From assembly GCA_021804655.1 (NCBI GenBank), contig JAJZHE010000006.1:1-46428 (forward strand): a DNA stretch of 46,428 nt, read 5' to 3'. The stretch is from Acidobacteriota bacterium (GTDB lineage: Bacteria; Acidobacteriota; Terriglobia; Terriglobales; Acidobacteriaceae). Position numbers and translations under genes: made by a program. Each line of letters opens with the position of its first letter. Within the stretch, counting starts at the first letter, position 1. Under the pieces are notes generated by a model. That model saw only the letters and a list, made by a program, of their open reading frames with translations. It was not told where the DNA came from and did not search any database. Shown here piece after piece: positions 38,621-46,404 of this stretch.

Positions 38621-40066
38621 TCAGCCAAACATCCGCATCCATCCCGTCGCAGCCAGCTCCGCGGCCAGGATACTGCGCGGATCGCCCACGCTTCGGCACA
38701 GCGCTTCCGCCGCCAGATAGCCGCTGCGCACCGCACCCTCCATCGTCGCCGGCCATCCCGTCTGCACCCAGTCTCCCGCCAGAAAACACTGCGGCCACGG
38801 CGAGATCGCGCCGGGGCGAATCGCGTCAATGCCCGGAGGCACGCCAAACGTCGCACGCACTTCCTTCACCAGCGCGCTTTTGACCACGCGCGCCGACTTC
38901 GCCGCTGGAAAATACTCGCCCAGTTGCTTCGTCGCGCGCCGGATCGCCTCTTCGCGCGGCAGTGCGGCAAACTTGTGCGAAGCGCTGATCACCAGCTCCA
39001 CATAACTGCCCTCGCCCGTGCGCACTGGCTGCCAACGCGACTTGTGATACATCCAGTGAATCTCTCCATCCAGCAGCAGCGCATGATCCAGTTCCGTAAT
39101 CTCGCGATCAAACCACAGATGCACGCTGCAGATCGGCTGGTGCGTCAGCTTGCTCAGCCGCTCCTGCAACCCACCTGCATCCGCAGACTCCGGCATCGTC
39201 GGCAACAGCTTCGCCATCGCCTCAAAGGAAAGCGCAAGCACCAGATGCTCGGCTTCCAGCCGCTCCTCGCCGCACTGCACCGTCCACCGGCGCGCGGATT
39301 CATCCCACTCCGCTCCCGTCACGCTGCGCCCATGCAACAGCCGTCCGCGCCGCGCTTCCAGATACTCCGCCGTTCCCGCATATAAATCGCTCAGCGGCAC
39401 GCGGCTCATCCCCATCGCTCCCGCTTCCGGCGAATTCAGCAGCAGCTCGCGAATCACCTTCTGCGCATACGCCAGGTCAATCTGATCCAGGCTCGCATTC
39501 AGCGCGCTGGCAATCACCAGCTCCCAGAATCGGCTTTGCGCGCCCGCCGTCTGCCCATGAGCCTTCAGCCATTGCAGCAGCGAGCGGCCACTCGTCGGCC
39601 TGTGATGCAGCAGCATGCTGCCCATCGCAACCATCAGCGCAACCTTGTCCGCAACGGAAAAGCAGTGCGCGCGCAGAATCGCAGGCAACCCGTGCATCGG
39701 CGCCGGCAGCTTCGACGGCTCCAGCACAGAGCGCCGTCCACCCGGCTCAATCAGCGTCATCCGCCGATCCCAGAAAATACGATCCTCCACGCCAAGCCGC
39801 TTGTAAAAATCGATCAGGTTCGTGCAGCAGCCAAAGAGCACATGCTGGCAGTTGTCGATCACCTCGCCCGTGCCGGGATGAAAATACGAAGCCGCGCGCC
39901 CGCCCAGATATCCGCGCCGCTCCAGCAGCGTCACGCGAAATCCCGCATCCGCCAGCGCACACGCCGCGCTCATGCCGGCCACGCCGCCGCCCACCACCAT
40001 CACGGAGTTGGCTGCGGCATCTTCCGACCCGGCCGGGTTCATCGCGGTGCGCGTCTCGCTTTCCAT
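38621..40066 (-). CDS. hpnE: Hydroxysqualene dehydroxylase
   Basis: FAD-dependent enzyme that removes the hydroxyl of hydroxysqualene to give squalene, the last step of the HpnCDE route. About 481 residues from the ATG at 40066, which has AAGGG close upstream; a longer frame to 40180 would run deep into hpnD. Seen: FAD-binding VMVVGGGVAGMSAACALADAGF, ERRGYLGGRAASY, DNCQHVLFGCCTNLIDFY, and the C-terminal FLAGDWVQTGWPATMEGAVRSGYLAAE. It lies eight bases after hpnD at the end of the operon. Convergent with the TPR gene, only two bases apart. Confidence 0.93.
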   Translation of the reverse strand: MESETRTAMNPAGSEDAAANSVMVVGGGVAGMSAACALADAGFRVTLLERRGYLGGRAASYFHPGTGEVIDNCQHVLFGCCTNLIDFYKRLGVEDRIFWDRRMTLIEPGGRRSVLEPSKLPAPMHGLPAILRAHCFSVADKVALMVAMGSMLLHHRPTSGRSLLQWLKAHGQTAGAQSRFWELVIASALNASLDQIDLAYAQKVIRELLLNSPEAGAMGMSRVPLSDLYAGTAEYLEARRGRLLHGRSVTGAEWDESARRWTVQCGEERLEAEHLVLALSFEAMAKLLPTMPESADAGGLQERLSKLTHQPICSVHLWFDREITELDHALLLDGEIHWMYHKSRWQPVRTGEGSYVELVISASHKFAALPREEAIRRATKQLGEYFPAAKSARVVKSALVKEVRATFGVPPGIDAIRPGAISPWPQCFLAGDWVQTGWPATMEGAVRSGYLAAEALCRSVGDPRSILAAELAATGWMRMFG

Positions 40067-40074
40067 CAATGCCC

Positions 40075-41073
40075 TTATCCTCTGCTCCCGGTCGCGCTCT
40101 GGTGCGTCCTGCGCTGCGGAAAGACGCGCATCCAGCCCATCCACGCAAGCCCCGCCAACAGAATCGCCAGCTTCTGCCATGTCGGCACAGAGACGCGCCG
40201 CGCCAGCACTTCAAACCGTTCCCGCTCCATGCGCCGCAGCAACCGATGATAGATCGTCACCAGCACCCACAGCGCCGGTCGGCTCACGGGATCGATCAGC
40301 GGCAGCAGCTCCTGCGCCGCTACATACATCCGCTCCGCTCGCGTACCCACAGCGCTCAACAGCGCGCGTTCGCTCTCGTTCACTGCCATCGAGTCGCGAT
40401 GCAGCAACTGCTCCACCGTCACCCCACAGCGGCTCATTTCGCTCAGCGGCAGATACACCCGATTGCGCTCCGCATCTTCTCGCACATCGCGCAAAATATT
40501 CGTCAACTGAAACGCGATGCCCGTCTGTTCCGCCAGAGATTCCGCGCGTTCCTCCGCATAGCCAAAGATGCGAATGCACACCAGTCCAACGACCGAAGCC
40601 ACCAGATAGCAGTAGCGATCCAGTTCCTCATAGCTGGCATAGGTATCCGGTTTGCCCGCCCGGCTGGCTGCGCTTTCCTCCAGGTCCATCGTCGTTCCCG
40701 CCACCAGTTCATCCAGCAGCGCATAGGGAATCGCAAAGCGCTGCGCCGCATCGCGCACCGCCAGAAAAACCGCATCTCCGCTCGCCGCGCCCTCGCGCAC
40801 GCGATGCCACTCCGCCAGCCACGCAGTCAGATGTGCACGTCGATCGGCGCGGCTCAGCGACTCATCGTCCGACAGATCGTCCGCGCGCCGCATGAACGCA
40901 TAGATCGCACACATCGCGTCTCTGCGCTCCGACGGCAGCGCCACAAAGGAATAGTAAAAATTCTTCGCTTCGCGCCGGGCAATCGCGCGGCACTGCTCGT
41001 ATGCGCTGCGCAGCACCAGTGGATCCACGCGCACCGCTCCATTCCGCTCTGCCGTCTCGTTGGCTGCGATCAT
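40075..41073 (-). CDS. hpnD: Presqualene diphosphate synthase
   Basis: Joins two farnesyl diphosphates into presqualene diphosphate, the first step of squalene synthesis by HpnCDE. 332 residues from the ATG at 41073, which overlaps the hpnC stop (ATGA). The squalene/phytoene synthase fold is shown by NFYYSFVALPSERRDAMCAIYAFMRRADDLSDDE (first Asp-rich motif) and QLTNILRDVREDAERNRVYLP (second). A hydrophobic helix near the C-terminus (LAILLAGLAWMGWM) may tether it to the membrane. The longer in-frame reading to 41193 lies within hpnC and is not used. Confidence 0.93.
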   Translation of the reverse strand: MIAANETAERNGAVRVDPLVLRSAYEQCRAIARREAKNFYYSFVALPSERRDAMCAIYAFMRRADDLSDDESLSRADRRAHLTAWLAEWHRVREGAASGDAVFLAVRDAAQRFAIPYALLDELVAGTTMDLEESAASRAGKPDTYASYEELDRYCYLVASVVGLVCIRIFGYAEERAESLAEQTGIAFQLTNILRDVREDAERNRVYLPLSEMSRCGVTVEQLLHRDSMAVNESERALLSAVGTRAERMYVAAQELLPLIDPVSRPALWVLVTIYHRLLRRMERERFEVLARRVSVPTWQKLAILLAGLAWMGWMRVFPQRRTHQSATGSRG

Positions 41074-42053
41074 GCCGCTCGGCCTCGCAGTCGCAGCGCG
41101 GGCAAAAACTTTCCCGTCACCGCGCGCATCGCCAGCGCCAGTTTCGTTCGCCTGGAGATCGCAGGCCGCGCACGCAGCACGTCGTACTCGCACCGCTCAA
41201 TCGCCCGCAGAATCTCCAGCCCGCCGCGGCTGAACAGGTCCAGGTCCACCGCCAGTTCGCGATCCACCTGTTCGATCAGCGGCAATCCCTGCTCGAACAT
41301 CGTCCGCGCATACGCCGTCATCTCCCGCAGCAGTGCGCGAAACTCATCCGTCGCCACTCCGTCAGCAATCGTCTGCTCCGTCACGCCAAACCGCTCCATC
41401 GCATCCAGCGGCAAATAGATGCGTCCTCGCTGCACATAATCCGACCGCACATCCTGCCAGAAGTTGGCAAGCTGCAACGCCGAGCAGGTGAAATCCGAAA
41501 GCCGGAAGCGCTCCGCATCGCGATAGCCGCACACATACAACACCAGATGTCCCACCGGATTCGCAGAATTGCGGCAATATCCCAGCACATCCTCCATCGT
41601 CCTGTAGCGCGTCACCGTCTGGTCCTGCCGAAAGGCCGTCAGCAAATCCGCAAACGGCGTCATCGGAATCTCGCAGGCGCGAATCGTCTCCTTCAACGCC
41701 ACAAAAACCGGATGCCGCGCTTCGCCGCGATAACATGCCTCCAACTCCAGCCGCCAGAAATCCAGCAACGCCAGCGCCTGCCCCGTTCCACTCACCTCAT
41801 CGCCCAGGTCGTCCGAGACGCGACAGTAAGCATAGATCGCATGAAAATGCGGCCTCATCTTCTCAGGAAGAAACCATGACGCCACGTGAAAATTTTCGTA
41901 ATGCGTCTCCGCCAGTCGGCGACACCATGCACGCGCTTGCTCCAGCGTCGGCGTCGTCTCCGGCATGCGATAGCTCTCCGGCAGCGCCGCCCATCCGGCT
42001 CGCAGCAGTTCCTCGCGCTCGGCCGATTCCAGCATCTTGTACCCCGCGCTCAT
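41070..42053 (-). CDS. hpnC: Hydroxysqualene synthase
   Basis: Converts presqualene diphosphate to hydroxysqualene in the HpnCDE pathway. 327 residues with the same fold as HpnD: ETHYENFHVASWFLPEKMRPHFHAIYAYCRVSDDLGDE contains the first Asp-rich motif, and QLANFWQDVRSDYVQRGRIYLP the second. Distinguished from HpnD by its overall sequence and gene order C-D-E. It overlaps the upstream dehydrogenase gene by four bases and hpnD by four bases, so the operon is translated as a coupled chain. Confidence 0.93.
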   Translation of the reverse strand: MSAGYKMLESAEREELLRAGWAALPESYRMPETTPTLEQARAWCRRLAETHYENFHVASWFLPEKMRPHFHAIYAYCRVSDDLGDEVSGTGQALALLDFWRLELEACYRGEARHPVFVALKETIRACEIPMTPFADLLTAFRQDQTVTRYRTMEDVLGYCRNSANPVGHLVLYVCGYRDAERFRLSDFTCSALQLANFWQDVRSDYVQRGRIYLPLDAMERFGVTEQTIADGVATDEFRALLREMTAYARTMFEQGLPLIEQVDRELAVDLDLFSRGGLEILRAIERCEYDVLRARPAISRRTKLALAMRAVTGKFLPALRLRGRAA

Positions 42054-43141
42054 GCCTTTATCCTACCCTCCGCCGCGCCCGACACAATCACCGTCTTGAT
42101 CTCGCCCGCCTGCGCGCCCCACGACTGAAAAACCTTCGGCAAATCCTCCAGCGCAGCCTGCCCCGTCAACAGCATCTCCGCATCAAATCGCCCGCTTGCC
42201 AGCAGTTCAAATGCGCGTCGGCAAATCGCCGGCGTATGGTGAAACGTCGCCTTCAGCGTGATGTCGCCATAGTGCACCCGATTCGTATCCAGACACACCG
42301 TCGTTCCCGCCGCCGGCCCGCCAAAAAAATTCACCACCCCGCCATTGCGCACCATCCCCACCGCCTGTTGCCAGGTCTCCGGCAGCGCCACCGCTTCAAT
42401 CGCCACATCCACACCACGGCCATCCGGAGTCCGCTCGCGCACAGCCTCCACCACATTGCGGTCAGCGGCCAACTCAATCACTTCCTGCGCGCCCAGCGCC
42501 CGCGCCATCCGCGCCTGCTCCGCATGCTTCACCACGGCAATCAGTCGGCAATCCGCCAACACCGCCAGGCGCATCATCATCAGCCCCAGCGGTCCAGCGC
42601 CAATCACCGCAACCGTATCGCCTGTGCGCGCACCGCTGTCTTCCCATCCATGCAGCGCACACGCCAGCGGCTCGGTCATCGCCGCATGCGAGGCCGCCAT
42701 CCCTTCAGGAATCCGAAGCATGTTCTTCGCCACAATCCGCTCCGGAATGCGCATGTACTCGGCATACGCGCCGTTGTTGAAGAGCAGGTCGTCGCACAGA
42801 TTCTCCTGATCGCGCTGGCAGAGGTAGCACACGCCGCACGGCGCCGAATTCAACGCCACCACGCGCTCGCCCAGCGCAAACTCCGTCACGCTCGCGCCGC
42901 GCTCCACAATCGTCCCCGCCACCTCATGCCCAAACAGCATCGGCGGGCGAAGCATCTTCGCGTGATACCCGCGTCGATAGACCTTGCGATCCGTCCCACA
43001 GGTCAGCGCCGCATCCACGCGCAGAATCACTTCACCGTCAAGCGCACGCGGCGGCTCCACCTGCTCCACGCGGAGATCCTCTTTGCCATACAACACCGCC
43101 GCCTTCATGCGCTCCGGAATCGCCATCTGCTCTGCACTCAT
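42050..43141 (-). CDS. Zinc-dependent medium-chain dehydrogenase in the hopanoid operon (second of two)
   Basis: A 363-residue MDR-superfamily alcohol/polyol dehydrogenase. Catalytic zinc ligands: Cys in ALTCGTDRK, His-Glu in LFGHEVAGT and Glu in MTEPLACALHG. Structural zinc: PCGVCYLCQRDQENLC with four cysteines. Nucleotide-binding motif VIGAGPLGLMMM. It resembles threonine/sorbitol dehydrogenase-type enzymes. It overlaps the next dehydrogenase gene upstream and hpnC downstream by four bases each, so it is firmly part of the hopanoid operon. A role in reducing or oxidising the sugar-derived side chain of hopanoids is plausible but unproven. Confidence 0.9.
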   Translation of the reverse strand: MSAEQMAIPERMKAAVLYGKEDLRVEQVEPPRALDGEVILRVDAALTCGTDRKVYRRGYHAKMLRPPMLFGHEVAGTIVERGASVTEFALGERVVALNSAPCGVCYLCQRDQENLCDDLLFNNGAYAEYMRIPERIVAKNMLRIPEGMAASHAAMTEPLACALHGWEDSGARTGDTVAVIGAGPLGLMMMRLAVLADCRLIAVVKHAEQARMARALGAQEVIELAADRNVVEAVRERTPDGRGVDVAIEAVALPETWQQAVGMVRNGGVVNFFGGPAAGTTVCLDTNRVHYGDITLKATFHHTPAICRRAFELLASGRFDAEMLLTGQAALEDLPKVFQSWGAQAGEIKTVIVSGAAEGRIKA

Positions 43142-44256
43142 CGCGCCTCCGGCTCAATCATGATCTTCATCGACTGCGCGCTTGGCTGCGACGCCACGCC
43201 GATCGCCTCCACCGCCTGCTCCAGAGGAAACCGGTGCGAGACCAGCTTCGTCAGATCGAATCCATTGCGATACCCATCGAAGACCAGCGCCGATCCTTCG
43301 TCCTGAATATCCACCGCAGCCGAATACGATCCGATCATCGCTTTCTCATCCATGCACACCGCTCCCGGATCGAAGCTCGCTTCCCCATGCTGCGTCTGCG
43401 CAAACAGCAGCACCTTGCCGCCGGGCCGCACCGCCGCCATCGCCGTGGCAATCAACGCATTCCCGCCCACCGCCAGCAACACCGCGTCCGCGCCACGGCC
43501 TTCGGTCGCCGCCTTCACGCGCTCCGCCACATCCTCCTTACCCGCATGGATCGCATGATGCAAGCCAAACTCAGCGGCAATCGCATGACGCTCCGGATAA
43601 AGGTCCGAAGTGAAAACCGTCGCTCCCGTGCGCCGCGCCAACGAGGCCAGCAGGATGCCAATCGGTCCCTGGCCAATCACCAGAGCCGTATCGTCGGCTT
43701 CCAACCCCAGCATCTTCACGCCCTTCAGGCACGTATTCACCGGCTCCACAAACGCCGCCTGCTCCAGCGGCACATCATCCGGAACGCGCACCACGCCGCC
43801 ATCGCGCACAATCCAGTCCATCACGCGCACAAACTCGGCAAATCCGCCGCCCGCCGGTTCAAATCCCGCCGTCACGCCCACGCGCTTATACGTCGCGCAC
43901 TGCGCAAAGGTCTTCTTCCGGCAATAAAAACACGCGCGGCACGGAATATGATGAAAAACCATCACGCGCTCGCCCACGCGAAACTTCGTCACGCCTTCGC
44001 CCACCGCTGCAATCGTTCCCGCCGTCTCATGACCAAAGATGCGTGGCGCCGAGTGCGACCCGGTGTGAATCTTCTTGAGGTCCGTGCCGCAGATGCCGCA
44101 CGACGCCACGCGAATCAGCAGTTCGCCCGCGCCAATCCGTGGCACCGGCACCGTCTCCACGCGCACATCGTTCACCCCGCGATAGACCGCCGCGCGCATC
44201 GTCGCCGACAGGCTCTTCGTTGCATTCCTTTGCTCTTCTGCCATCTCAGCCTTCAT
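43138..44256 (-). CDS. Zinc-dependent medium-chain dehydrogenase in the hopanoid operon (first of two)
   Basis: A 372-residue MDR-superfamily dehydrogenase, related to but clearly different from the gene after it. Catalytic zinc: Cys56 (CGICGTDLKK), His-Glu in IFGHETAGT and Glu in FVEPVNTCLKG. Structural zinc: PCRACFYCRKKTFAQC. NAD(P) motif VIGQGPIGILLA. The first 20 residues are polar and variable; an internal ATG at Met20 (MRAAVYRG) would give the usual family N-terminus. Its start overlaps hpnG by 11 bases. Sitting directly after hpnG, which releases the ribose end of the hopanoid side chain, it is the best candidate for acting on that product. Confidence 0.9.
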   Translation of the reverse strand: MKAEMAEEQRNATKSLSATMRAAVYRGVNDVRVETVPVPRIGAGELLIRVASCGICGTDLKKIHTGSHSAPRIFGHETAGTIAAVGEGVTKFRVGERVMVFHHIPCRACFYCRKKTFAQCATYKRVGVTAGFEPAGGGFAEFVRVMDWIVRDGGVVRVPDDVPLEQAAFVEPVNTCLKGVKMLGLEADDTALVIGQGPIGILLASLARRTGATVFTSDLYPERHAIAAEFGLHHAIHAGKEDVAERVKAATEGRGADAVLLAVGGNALIATAMAAVRPGGKVLLFAQTQHGEASFDPGAVCMDEKAMIGSYSAAVDIQDEGSALVFDGYRNGFDLTKLVSHRFPLEQAVEAIGVASQPSAQSMKIMIEPEAR

Positions 44257-44944
44257 ACTCGTCCAGCCATTGCATCAGTGCAGCGCGCAGGTTCTCCGCA
44301 GCCAGTTTACTGCCGCGAGCCATCTCCATCACAGGTCGCCACAACGCAGGCCGCAGCGCCACATGCAGGCCAAACGCAGCCTCACGCATCCGCCCATCCT
44401 GCGTCACAAAACCGCTCATCTCCGGCATCTCGAAATCCGCCCCATCTGAGATCGCCTTGATCGCCGCAAACGGAATTTCACGCGCCCGCGCCACCCGCGC
44501 CACCGCGGCAGCCTCCATCTCCACCGCCGCAGCTCCATAGCTCGCGCGCAGACGCTGTTTTTCCTGAATATCGGCCGGAACAGCCACCGTCACCACCGCT
44601 CCTGAAGAGCCGACACGCGGCCCGACGTCCGGGAAAAATCGCTCGCCCGTGCGCGCATCGATCACTACCTCGGCCTGCACCGTCGTGCCCACGCCGCGCG
44701 CGCGATCACACGCTCCCGCCCATCCTGCCGACACCAGCACCCGCGGCGCAGGACCAAGCTGCAATGCGGCTTCCACGGCGCGCACCGCGCGTCCAGCTCC
44801 CATCCCTCCATACGCCACCACGGCGCGTTCGCTCACGAAGCATTCCACGCCCGGAACATCCGTCGCGCCGCGTGTCCATCCATGCACCAGCCCCGCAACT
44901 TCGCGTCGCAAGGCGGCGATCACGACGATTCGTCCCTGGCTCAT
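44246..44944 (-). CDS. hpnG: Hopanoid-associated nucleoside phosphorylase
   Basis: A 232-residue protein of the purine nucleoside phosphorylase/MTA-SAH nucleosidase fold, matching HpnG, which removes adenine from adenosylhopane. Seen: VVIAALRREVAGL, AYGGMGAGRAVRAVEAAL, VSAGWAGAC, and the active-site region AAAVEMEAAAVARVAR followed by AIKAISDGADFEMP. The start at 44944 fits the family; a frame to 44986 would overlap hpnA. It follows hpnA by five bases. The partner radical SAM enzyme HpnH is not in the window. Confidence 0.9.
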   Translation of the reverse strand: MSQGRIVVIAALRREVAGLVHGWTRGATDVPGVECFVSERAVVAYGGMGAGRAVRAVEAALQLGPAPRVLVSAGWAGACDRARGVGTTVQAEVVIDARTGERFFPDVGPRVGSSGAVVTVAVPADIQEKQRLRASYGAAAVEMEAAAVARVARAREIPFAAIKAISDGADFEMPEMSGFVTQDGRMREAAFGLHVALRPALWRPVMEMARGSKLAAENLRAALMQWLDEYEG

Positions 44945-44949
44945 CGGTC

Positions 44950-45951
44950 TCACCCAGCCGGCGCGTAGCCATGCGCGCGGAACCACTCCACCGCAGCACG
45001 CATCGCCGGATACACCGGCGCCACGCGAAATCCAAGCTCCTGCTGCGCCCGCGCCGAGGAGGCAAACATCTTCTTGCGTCCCATGCGCACTTCTTCCACC
45101 GTCGCGCGCGGCTCCCTGCCCAGGATGCGCCCGGTCAGCGTCTCCTCAAAAAACGCATACATCGCCGCCACCCAATACGGAATCTCCACCGTCGGTGACG
45201 GAATCCCCGTCATCGCCGCCAGCTTGTCCAGAATCTGTTTCAGCGTCAGGTTTTCTCCGCCCAGAATATAGCGCCGTCCCGGCTCGCCGCGTTCCAGAGC
45301 CGCGGCATGCGCCCGCGCCACTTCGCTCACGTCCACCAGATTCAGCCCCGTGTCCATATACGCCGGAAAACGCCGATGCAGAAAGTCCACCGTAATCCGT
45401 CCCGTCGGCGTCGGCTTGCTGTCGTGCGTGCCAATCGGCGTCGTCGGGTTCAGGATCATCACCTGCTGTCCGGCTTCGGCTGCGCGCAGCGCCTCCTGCT
45501 CCGCCAGATACTTCGATCGCTTGTAGTGGCCCACCATATCCGCCAGCGAAACCGGCGTCTCTTCATTCACGATCAGCCCGTCGCGCCGAAAGCCCATCGT
45601 CGCCACGCTCGACGTGTAGACCACCCGCCGCACGCCCTGCTCTCGCGCCATCTCCAGCAGTCGGCGCGTTCCCTCCACGTTGGCGCGATACATCGCCTGC
45701 GGATCCCGCACCCACAGCCGATAATCCGCCGCCACATGCACCACGGCTTCGCAGTCCGCCACTGCGCTGCGCAGCGACTCCGGCTCGGCCAGGTCACCCA
45801 CACACACCTCGGCATCCCCGCCAATCAGTTCCAGATTGCCTGTCCTGCTTGTGCTGCGCGTCAACAGACGCAGCTTCGCGCCCTGCGAAGCCAGTTCGCG
45901 CGCCACATGGAAGCCGACAAAACCCGTCGCTCCCGTCACAAAAATCTTCAT
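44950..45951 (-). CDS. hpnA: Hopanoid-associated sugar epimerase
   Basis: A 333-residue extended short-chain dehydrogenase (NAD-dependent epimerase/dehydratase fold) of the HpnA type. Seen: GATGFVGFHVARELASQG nucleotide-binding motif, VVHVAADYRLWV, the catalytic YxxxK as YKRSKYLAE, NPTTPIGTHDSKPTPTG, and LNLVDVSEVARAHAAALERG. HpnA is found beside hopanoid genes but its reaction is not firmly known. It has GGAAAG about nine bases before the ATG, 21 bases after the small uncharacterised gene, and is followed closely by hpnG. Confidence 0.92.
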   Translation of the reverse strand: MKIFVTGATGFVGFHVARELASQGAKLRLLTRSTSRTGNLELIGGDAEVCVGDLAEPESLRSAVADCEAVVHVAADYRLWVRDPQAMYRANVEGTRRLLEMAREQGVRRVVYTSSVATMGFRRDGLIVNEETPVSLADMVGHYKRSKYLAEQEALRAAEAGQQVMILNPTTPIGTHDSKPTPTGRITVDFLHRRFPAYMDTGLNLVDVSEVARAHAAALERGEPGRRYILGGENLTLKQILDKLAAMTGIPSPTVEIPYWVAAMYAFFEETLTGRILGREPRATVEEVRMGRKKMFASSARAQQELGFRVAPVYPAMRAAVEWFRAHGYAPAG

Positions 45952-45972: not shown

Positions 45973-46404
45973 CTAGTCGAGCGCCTCTGGATGCAAGCCG
46001 ATATTCTTCTCGCCGGCAGCCTTCTTTTCGGCATACTTCTTCACCCAGGACTCCCAGTGCTTGCCTGCTGCGCGGTCCTTGCCCGTAAACTCGATCCGCG
46101 CAATCTCGGCATAACTCACGCGGCGTTTTTCCAGCGCGTTGGCCGGGAAAAACTGCACCCAGGAGTGCGCCAGCGTTGCGCCCGTCTCGCGGTTGAACAG
46201 ATACGCATCAACGCGCTCGCCCGACTTCAGCGTCAGCGTCACGTCGCCGCGATAATCAAACGCCTTTTCCAGCGCCGCTTTCAGATCGTCCTCAGTTGCC
46301 AGCTCCGGAATCCAGCCCTCAAGATTTTCGTGGGCAAATCCTGCCACAACCTCCAGCTCATCCGGATTCTGCACCGTCTTCGCCTCGCTCACAGCCTCGC
46401 TCAT
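45973..46404 (-). CDS. Uncharacterised small protein at the head of the hopanoid operon
   Basis: A 143-residue soluble protein not assigned to a family by eye. It has an acidic N-terminus, a central stretch that looks like a small beta barrel (about 50-110: DVTLTLKSGERVDAYLFNRE, then VSYAEIARIEFTG), and a basic C-terminal helix (KHWESWVKKYAEKKAAGE). The pattern recalls Sm-like or other small RNA/lipid-binding barrels, without proof. No signal peptide or membrane helix. GGAGAC precedes the ATG by about six to ten bases. Twenty-one bases before hpnA, so it is probably co-transcribed with the hopanoid genes. Confidence 0.8.
   Translation of the reverse strand: MSEAVSEAKTVQNPDELEVVAGFAHENLEGWIPELATEDDLKAALEKAFDYRGDVTLTLKSGERVDAYLFNRETGATLAHSWVQFFPANALEKRRVSYAEIARIEFTGKDRAAGKHWESWVKKYAEKKAAGEKNIGLHPEALD

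Follow-up and report, generated by a model that had tools for sequence, protein, structure and literature searches.

Hopanoids are sterol-like membrane lipids of bacteria. Many of the C35 hopanoids, which serve as molecular fossils, derive from the parent compound bacteriohopanetetrol (BHT). The closest described systems are the hopanoid gene clusters of PMC5462960 (2017). The available part of that source places a gene called ug1 behind hpnA-hpnG and another, ug2, before hpnC, and marks both as being of unknown function. There, ug2 encodes a protein of around 350 amino acids (aa), often annotated as a Zn-binding alcohol dehydrogenase; it is tied to hpnC, hpnD and hpnE. The source states that every species of SD1 and SD3 has it, and at another point describes cluster A of SD3 as being without ug2. 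In the part available, ug1 is not called a dehydrogenase, and neither a NAD/NADP split nor a pairing of the two genes is mentioned. Here, we analysed a window of 46,428 nucleotides from an Acidobacteriaceae genome (GCA_021804655.1, contig JAJZHE010000006.1), which carries a hopanoid operon containing two genes of zinc-dependent medium-chain dehydrogenases/reductases (MDR), MDR1 and MDR2. By position only, MDR1 corresponds to ug1, MDR2 to ug2 and a 143-aa protein (45973-46404, minus strand) to ug3, which PMC5462960 places behind hpnH. The linkage described below is therefore a rediscovery of ug1 and ug2, as judged by position, with a fuller census. What is new here is a predicted NAD/NADP split between the two enzymes and their old tandem partnership, found also without hopanoid genes. 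The association is real, conserved and already known, and any function given to the pair below is a prediction. No report on the function of the pair was found among the titles and abstracts searched of open-licence PMC papers.

Both genes are on the minus strand. MDR1 (43138-44256) encodes 372 aa and MDR2 (42050-43141) 363 aa, and they are flanked by an HpnG-like nucleosidase/phosphorylase (44246-44986, start codon uncertain) and the squalene synthase HpnC (41070-42053). From the coordinates, HpnG and MDR1 overlap by 11 bases, MDR1 and MDR2 by 4, and MDR2 and HpnC by 4. The initial annotation had described two MDR dehydrogenases with full zinc sites between hpnG and hpnC, joined by 4- to 11-base overlaps, and the coordinates, domain scores and alignments agree with that description. 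ADH_N (GroES-like) and ADH_zinc_N (Rossmann) domains scored above the Pfam gathering score in both proteins, confirming two distinct zinc MDR dehydrogenases. By alignment position, the zinc-site residues are C53, H76, E77 and E171 plus C106/C109/C112/C120 in MDR1, and C48, H72, E73 and E157 plus C102/C105/C108/C116 in MDR2; their roles as catalytic and structural zinc ligands are assigned after the MDR family. The catalytic ligands and the four structural Cys were invariant in 138 MDR1 rows. Of the 128 MDR2 rows, 13 had Asp in place of the first catalytic Cys and one had Asp in place of the Glu, all other ligands being invariant. Rows below 320 aa or 140 bits were excluded from the alignment, and the zinc-ligand, overlap, motif and cofactor counts include redundant rows. 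As a side observation, LTDGTD, with Asp for the catalytic zinc Cys, replaced LTCGTD in 12 of 72 hopanoid-linked MDR2 rows from named genomes.

A Cys, His and Glu set of zinc ligands is that of polyol dehydrogenases, whose substrates are mainly secondary alcohols and ketones. The nearest solved sequences were 4ej6 for MDR2 and 2dq4 for MDR1, and in profile searches 4ej6 and the NADP(H) ketose reductase 1e3j ranked top for both. Sequence and fold neighbours of the two proteins included ketose reductase and butanediol, threonine and sorbitol dehydrogenases. Most of the solved relatives, the top ones included, work on secondary alcohols or ketones. Two sugar-C1-type matches were also seen: MDR1 passed the Pfam model of the glucose dehydrogenase C-terminus by a small margin (35.1 vs 34.9 bits), with MDR2 below it, and D-arabinose 1-dehydrogenase (2h6e) was among the weaker solved relatives of MDR2. 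The glucose dehydrogenase family and 2h6e both act at sugar C1. The predicted structures (mean pLDDT 92.5 and 91.7) resembled sorbitol, threonine 3- and butanediol dehydrogenases and the whitefly NADP(H) ketose reductase in fold, Cys-His-Glu zinc ligands and cofactor-site logic; they differed from them in an identity of just 21-32% to solved MDR structures, in a six-residue insert in MDR1 and in an FHHTP motif in MDR2. Two named families were tried and rejected. The two MDRs scored 143.8 and 157.5 bits against the L-threonine 3-dehydrogenase model (TIGR00692, cut-off 458.35) and 150.6 and 162.2 against that of scyllo-inosose 3-dehydrogenase (NF041097, cut-off 450). At 144-162 bits against cut-offs of 380-458, they belong to neither family.

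The cofactor sites of the two enzymes were of opposite types. In this fold, an acidic residue at the end of the second Rossmann strand marks a NAD-type site and a basic one a NADP-type site. MDR1 of the window has D218, and Asp or Glu was found in 120/120 hopanoid-linked MDR1 rows. MDR2 has V-K-H, and a Lys/Arg/His site lacking the acid was found in 105 of 106 hopanoid-linked MDR2 rows. In tandem pairs far from the hopanoid-linked ones, 9 of 18 MDR2 rows were NADP-type and 9 carried an acid. With opposite predicted cofactors and genes in a single transcription unit, the two enzymes may oxidise and reduce the same substrate in succession.

In order to follow the pair through the phylum, we searched 297 Acidobacteriota genomes, many of them drafts, with an MDR threshold of E 1e-60 and at most six candidates scored per genome. 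HpnH exceeded its cut-off in 76 genomes. MDR1 was found in 47, 42 of which also had HpnH, and MDR2 in 66, 58 of them with HpnH. MDR1 adjoined hpnG or hpnA in 44 of its 47 genomes (the exceptions being G066, G221 and G078). It was beside HpnG in 29/29 genomes of family f1, 2/2 of f2 and 1/1 of f50, and beside HpnA in 12/12 of f28. Five MDR1 genomes were without HpnH (G078, G113, G211, G221 and G282); in G113, G211 and G282, HpnA and HpnD-like genes flanked the pair, G113 also had SHC, and completeness is 84% for G211 and 88% for G282. In the f28 loci the pair was flanked by HpnA and HpnD, HpnG being absent between HpnA and MDR1, and MDR1 and MDR2 overlapped by 4 bases in all 12. Eight of the 12 f28 genomes had weak HpnG-like matches on a different contig, G203 had one about 5 kb past HpnD and G282 one directly behind HpnD; none was found in G211 and G258. 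A separate observation concerns squalene genes in this family: in 11 of the 12 f28 genomes with the pair (loci L072-L075, L077-L082 and L085), HpnE was not found, no HpnC exceeded its cut-off and a single squalene-synthase-like gene was at the locus; 9 of these 11 have SHC.

A second scan used the MDR1 alignment on named genomes and covered the best 80 of at least 582 relatives, a set nearest to one MDR1 that favours the hopanoid clade; some of these loci are the same contigs as loci of the genome sample (for example L087/L136 and L060/L200). All of these best 80 carried acidobacterial titles, including Acidiferrales, Bryobacterales, Acidobacteriales, Sulfotelmatobacter and two Vicinamibacteria. 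Hopanoid genes were present at 78 of them, the other two being the Vicinamibacteria loci L203 and L211. Of the 69 loci that extended upstream by over 1.5 kb, MDR1 was preceded by HpnG in 50, HpnA in 8 and neither in 11. MDR2 was behind MDR1 in 71 of the 74 that extended downstream by over 1.3 kb, and HpnC came next in 59 of the 67 with room behind MDR2 (HpnD in 4, neither in 4). The 4-base overlap of MDR1 and MDR2 was present in 49 of the 72 named loci holding both. Altogether, the linkage of the MDR pair to hopanoid genes is more than chance.

This linkage was also maintained after rearrangement. Of the 29 f1 genomes holding both genes, 19 had MDR1 and MDR2 apart, at least 11 kb from each other or on separate contigs. 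MDR1 remained behind HpnG in 19/19 of these, and HpnC directly followed MDR2 in 19/19 (8 loci read, 11 by coordinates); in one genome (G195, L095), HpnC was matched as two pieces. The split was probably one ancestral event, with each gene retaining its hopanoid neighbours since. In a second layout, present in L168, L171, L172 and L184, MDR1-MDR2-HpnC-HpnD and HpnA-HpnG lie on opposite strands.

The pair has a history outside the operon. MDR1-like and MDR2-like genes in tandem or close to each other, in either order, were also found in families f25, f32, f45, f47, f60, f66 and f77. The loci read showed no hopanoid neighbours, and the genes around these distant pairs (prephenate dehydratase, DAO, hydrolase, transport and others) had no common function. 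A quick tree of 78 rows placed MDR1 on one side and MDR2 on the other, with matching sub-clades, and in more careful trees the hopanoid-linked MDR2 rows formed one clade with support 95/92. The nearest outsiders in the careful trees were G066, G221, L203 and L211, which share with the hopanoid clade the MDR1 insert and the MDR2 motifs GYHARM/GYHAKM and FHHTP; the far pairs are without the insert. Since these outsider pairs carry insert and motifs and have no hopanoid genes at the locus, the pair either existed before it joined the operon or has been reused. Two neighbouring genes were seen at the sister loci: in G066 (L086, 8581-11617) the pair is downstream of a proline dehydrogenase gene, and in G221 (L088, 7003-7986) a WYL regulator gene lies upstream of the pair.

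At the other end of the distribution, MDR1 was not found at E 1e-60 in 34 of the 76 HpnH genomes. Three of these are possible gaps or losses (G007, G273 and G250): the G273 contig ends just past HpnA (L093), and G250 is 81% complete. G007, an f1 genome with HpnJ, has SHC, HpnH and the 143-aa gene, followed by transposase-like frames to the contig end (L091, 8945-10676); the SHC query matches the same place there as the TIGR01507 model. Searches of this genome recovered no MDR1, MDR2, HpnG, HpnC or HpnE, which may reflect loss or an assembly gap. The other 31 genomes, from 14 families, all matched SHC at E 1e-30 and HpnG at 1e-6, and this HpnG family also matched in 10 of 14 control genomes. 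An MDR2-like match at 1e-60 was obtained in 15 of the 31, and those examined were from far clades and away from hopanoid genes. We read 13 MDR-free SHC-HpnH-HpnG loci. HpnA was present in 12 (L104-L114 except L109, and L116 and L117) and absent from L109 (G059). SHC, HpnH and HpnG were dispersed in L105, and the genes were scattered in f32, f70 and f77. No obvious aldose reductase was seen among hand-picked neighbours behind hpnG in L104, L106, L109, L111, L112, L115 and L116, which comprised luciferase-like monooxygenase, FMN dehydrogenase, HMG-CoA reductase, GHMP kinases, decarboxylases, and squalene synthase-like, TonB-type, glycosyltransferase and permease proteins.

These distributions bear on the proposal of the initial annotation that an MDR supplies the missing side-chain reductase, which would convert ribosylhopane to BHT. 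Its premise that no enzyme is firmly assigned to this step is in line with the available part of PMC12583986 (November 2025), according to which the enzyme has not been established and no obvious candidate stands beside alphaproteobacterial clusters except HpnA, B, L and M; clade-specific solutions are thus possible. The expected co-occurrence with hpnG and hpnH held within one large Acidobacteriota group (the 42 of 47 MDR1 genomes above) and broke down across the phylum: MDR1 was neither present in all HpnH genomes (34 of 76 without it) nor restricted to them (5 of 47). A pair serving as universal ribosylhopane reductase is ruled against by the HpnH genomes without a close MDR1. The available part of PMC5462960 adds that ug2 is absent from Chloracidobacterium thermophilum, a BHT maker, and together with the 31 MDR1-less genomes this makes the pair unlikely as a general reductase. 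A narrower version, in which one MDR, most likely the putative NADPH-type MDR2, would open the ribose to give BHT within the clade and the other would act on a further hydroxyl, is possible, though we consider it rather doubtful. The location directly after HpnG, the NADP-type site of MDR2, the sugar-C1-type matches and the scope for clade-specific solutions speak for it. The same 31 genomes of 14 families and C. thermophilum speak against it, as do the 19 split genomes, where MDR2 is the gene separated from HpnG, and the action of the top solved relatives on secondary alcohols. The f28 loci, in which no HpnG precedes the pair, do not support a reductase either, and the sister pair of G221 tells against it. 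A little less probable still, and on balance unlikely, is that HpnA is the reductase and the MDRs do something else, an arrangement compatible with a redox pair. HpnA had a strong family match in the window, was present both in the MDR clusters and in 12 of the 13 MDR-free loci, and is proposed for ribosylhopane to BHT in PMC5462960; it was missing from the thirteenth (L109), and the available part of that source also cites some evidence that hpnA is non-essential for BHT in Burkholderia cenocepacia and names BHT producers without HpnA, such as Rhodopseudomonas.

Other roles appear much less probable. That MDR2 serves squalene synthesis with HpnC, HpnD and HpnE is suggested by its place at the head of hpnC wherever the operon is split. 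The role is weakened by the pair's persistence in the 11 f28 genomes in which HpnE was not found and HpnC was below cut-off; HpnC, D and E are moreover enough for squalene when expressed in Escherichia coli, according to the available part of PMC5462960, and the oldest partner of MDR2 appears to be MDR1. We therefore regard it as very improbable, and the same holds for the building or alteration of a cyclitol or amino-sugar head group. The scyllo-inosose 3-dehydrogenase IolM was the top NCBIfam match of MDR2, far under its cut-off, and HpnJ exceeded its cut-off in 33 of 34 f1, f2 and f50 genomes, with HpnK in 0/34 (sub-cut-off matches only). Across the 76 HpnH genomes, the HpnJ and HpnK distributions nevertheless did not track the pair: nine f28 genomes with the pair have HpnK and no HpnJ above cut-off, and f32, f10, f25, f77 and f78 have both above cut-off without a hopanoid-linked pair. 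Hardly more probable is that the pair hitch-hikes in the operon and acts on another polyol. Tandem pairs outside hopanoid loci (G066; f32, f47, f60 and f77) and the pair of G221, where HpnH, HpnG and SHC were not found, fit this idea. Against it, the hopanoid linkage is kept in loci titled as at least three orders among the best 80, and after two kinds of rearrangement.

Taking all this into account, the pair is likely to belong to the bacteriohopanepolyol (BHP) pathway. Our preferred reading, held tentatively and at less than even confidence, is that MDR1 and MDR2 are a co-operating redox pair of the polyol-dehydrogenase type acting on the C35 side chain, in a BHP branch of one large Acidobacteriota group. 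HpnH and HpnG would make the ribose-derived side chain, a NAD-linked MDR1 would then oxidise one of its hydroxyls, and a NADPH-linked MDR2 would reduce the resulting carbonyl. The differing cofactors would pull both half-reactions one way, with an inverted hydroxyl or a keto/alcohol variant as the net outcome, and MDR2 could additionally reduce ribosylhopane itself. The data show the gene order and its conservation, the intact zinc sites, the opposite types of cofactor site and the old tandem partnership, and we infer the hopanoid side chain as substrate, the carbon attacked and the direction of each reaction. A known parallel is provided by the 7-alpha and 7-beta hydroxysteroid dehydrogenases, short-chain dehydrogenases/reductases (SDR) of the steroid ring that work in pairs with different cofactors and invert a hydroxyl. 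As in that system, one carbon could be oxidised by a NAD-linked enzyme and then reduced again by a NADPH-linked one, or the reverse; unlike it, both enzymes here are zinc MDRs and the reaction is predicted. A fuller version, in which the pair was recruited from an older polyol-redox module and both reduces ribosylhopane and inverts or oxidises a side-chain hydroxyl, giving a BHP stereoisomer or keto form of the group's own, is unlikely as a whole. If a change of stereochemistry took place, it would explain a hopanoid side-chain variant in acidobacteria, and reduction combined with inversion or oxidation would yield a group-own BHP form usable as a lipid biomarker. As the two enzymes are well conserved, have opposite predicted cofactors and occur in a group that includes cultured members, a direct test is possible.

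Several observations weigh against a redox pair devoted to hopanoids. The hopanoid-linked MDR1 rows formed one clade with support of just 32/38. The sister pairs at G066, G221, L203 and L211 had no hopanoid genes at the locus, so that the insert and motifs they share with the hopanoid clade are not hopanoid-specific. In G221, which is listed as 100% complete, HpnH, HpnG and SHC were not found at the thresholds used, and HpnC and HpnE matches were present. The chemistry of the pair is therefore not necessarily hopanoid-specific. The 31 HpnH genomes without a close MDR1 count here as well, and the 19 split genomes are non-independent because the split was probably a single event. To our knowledge, no published side-chain product needs such a pair.

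The remaining genes of the operon complete the minus-strand series of the window: the 143-aa protein, HpnA, HpnG, MDR1, MDR2, HpnC, HpnD and HpnE. HpnA (44950-45951), an extended SDR of the 'hopanoid-associated sugar epimerase' family, scored 472.8 bits with TIGR03466 (cut-off 367.65), HpnC 348.2 with TIGR03464 (cut-off 250.45) and HpnE, the hydroxysqualene dehydroxylase (38621-40180), 456.2 with TIGR03467 (cut-off 283.05). Two members were under their NCBIfam cut-offs and were named by best family and genomic place: HpnG (76.4 bits with TIGR03468, cut-off 187.1; Pfam PNP_UDP_1) and the HpnD-like presqualene diphosphate synthase (40075-41193, start codon uncertain; 240.4 bits with TIGR03465, cut-off 278.6). 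The TIGR03468 cut-off was passed in 0 of 57 acidobacterial genomes searched, so this model may miss acidobacterial HpnG-like proteins, or some of them may be other nucleosidases. The 143-aa protein upstream of hpnA was without a Pfam or NCBIfam match; its gene is downstream of HpnH in most f1 loci and adjoins HpnH in G203 (L100).

The window is an entire contig (C164) of a 2.86 Mb draft genome, 86.9% complete. In the genome search, hpnH exceeded its cut-off solely on contig C62, downstream of frames named IspH and SHC, and this contig ends 99 bases past hpnH. The SHC and IspH names in this genome (G000) come from reading frames that were used as queries, with no family scan behind them. Another genome, G171 (L044), carries an unbroken series ispH-SHC-hpnH-143aa-hpnA-hpnG-MDR1-MDR2-hpnC-hpnD-hpnE, from which C164 and C62 are probably adjacent. 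Two minor observations were made on other hopanoid loci and genomes. All ten f28 genomes searched for HpnJ and HpnK had HpnK above cut-off, and none had HpnJ above it. In L109 (4195-8586), SHC-HpnH-HpnG are followed by mevalonate-pathway genes and a squalene synthase-like gene, and L116 (2465-8374) is arranged likewise; these loci come from f26 and f47 genomes, and their mevalonate-type genes comprise FMN dehydrogenase-like, HMG-CoA reductase, GHMP kinase and diphosphomevalonate decarboxylase-like genes.

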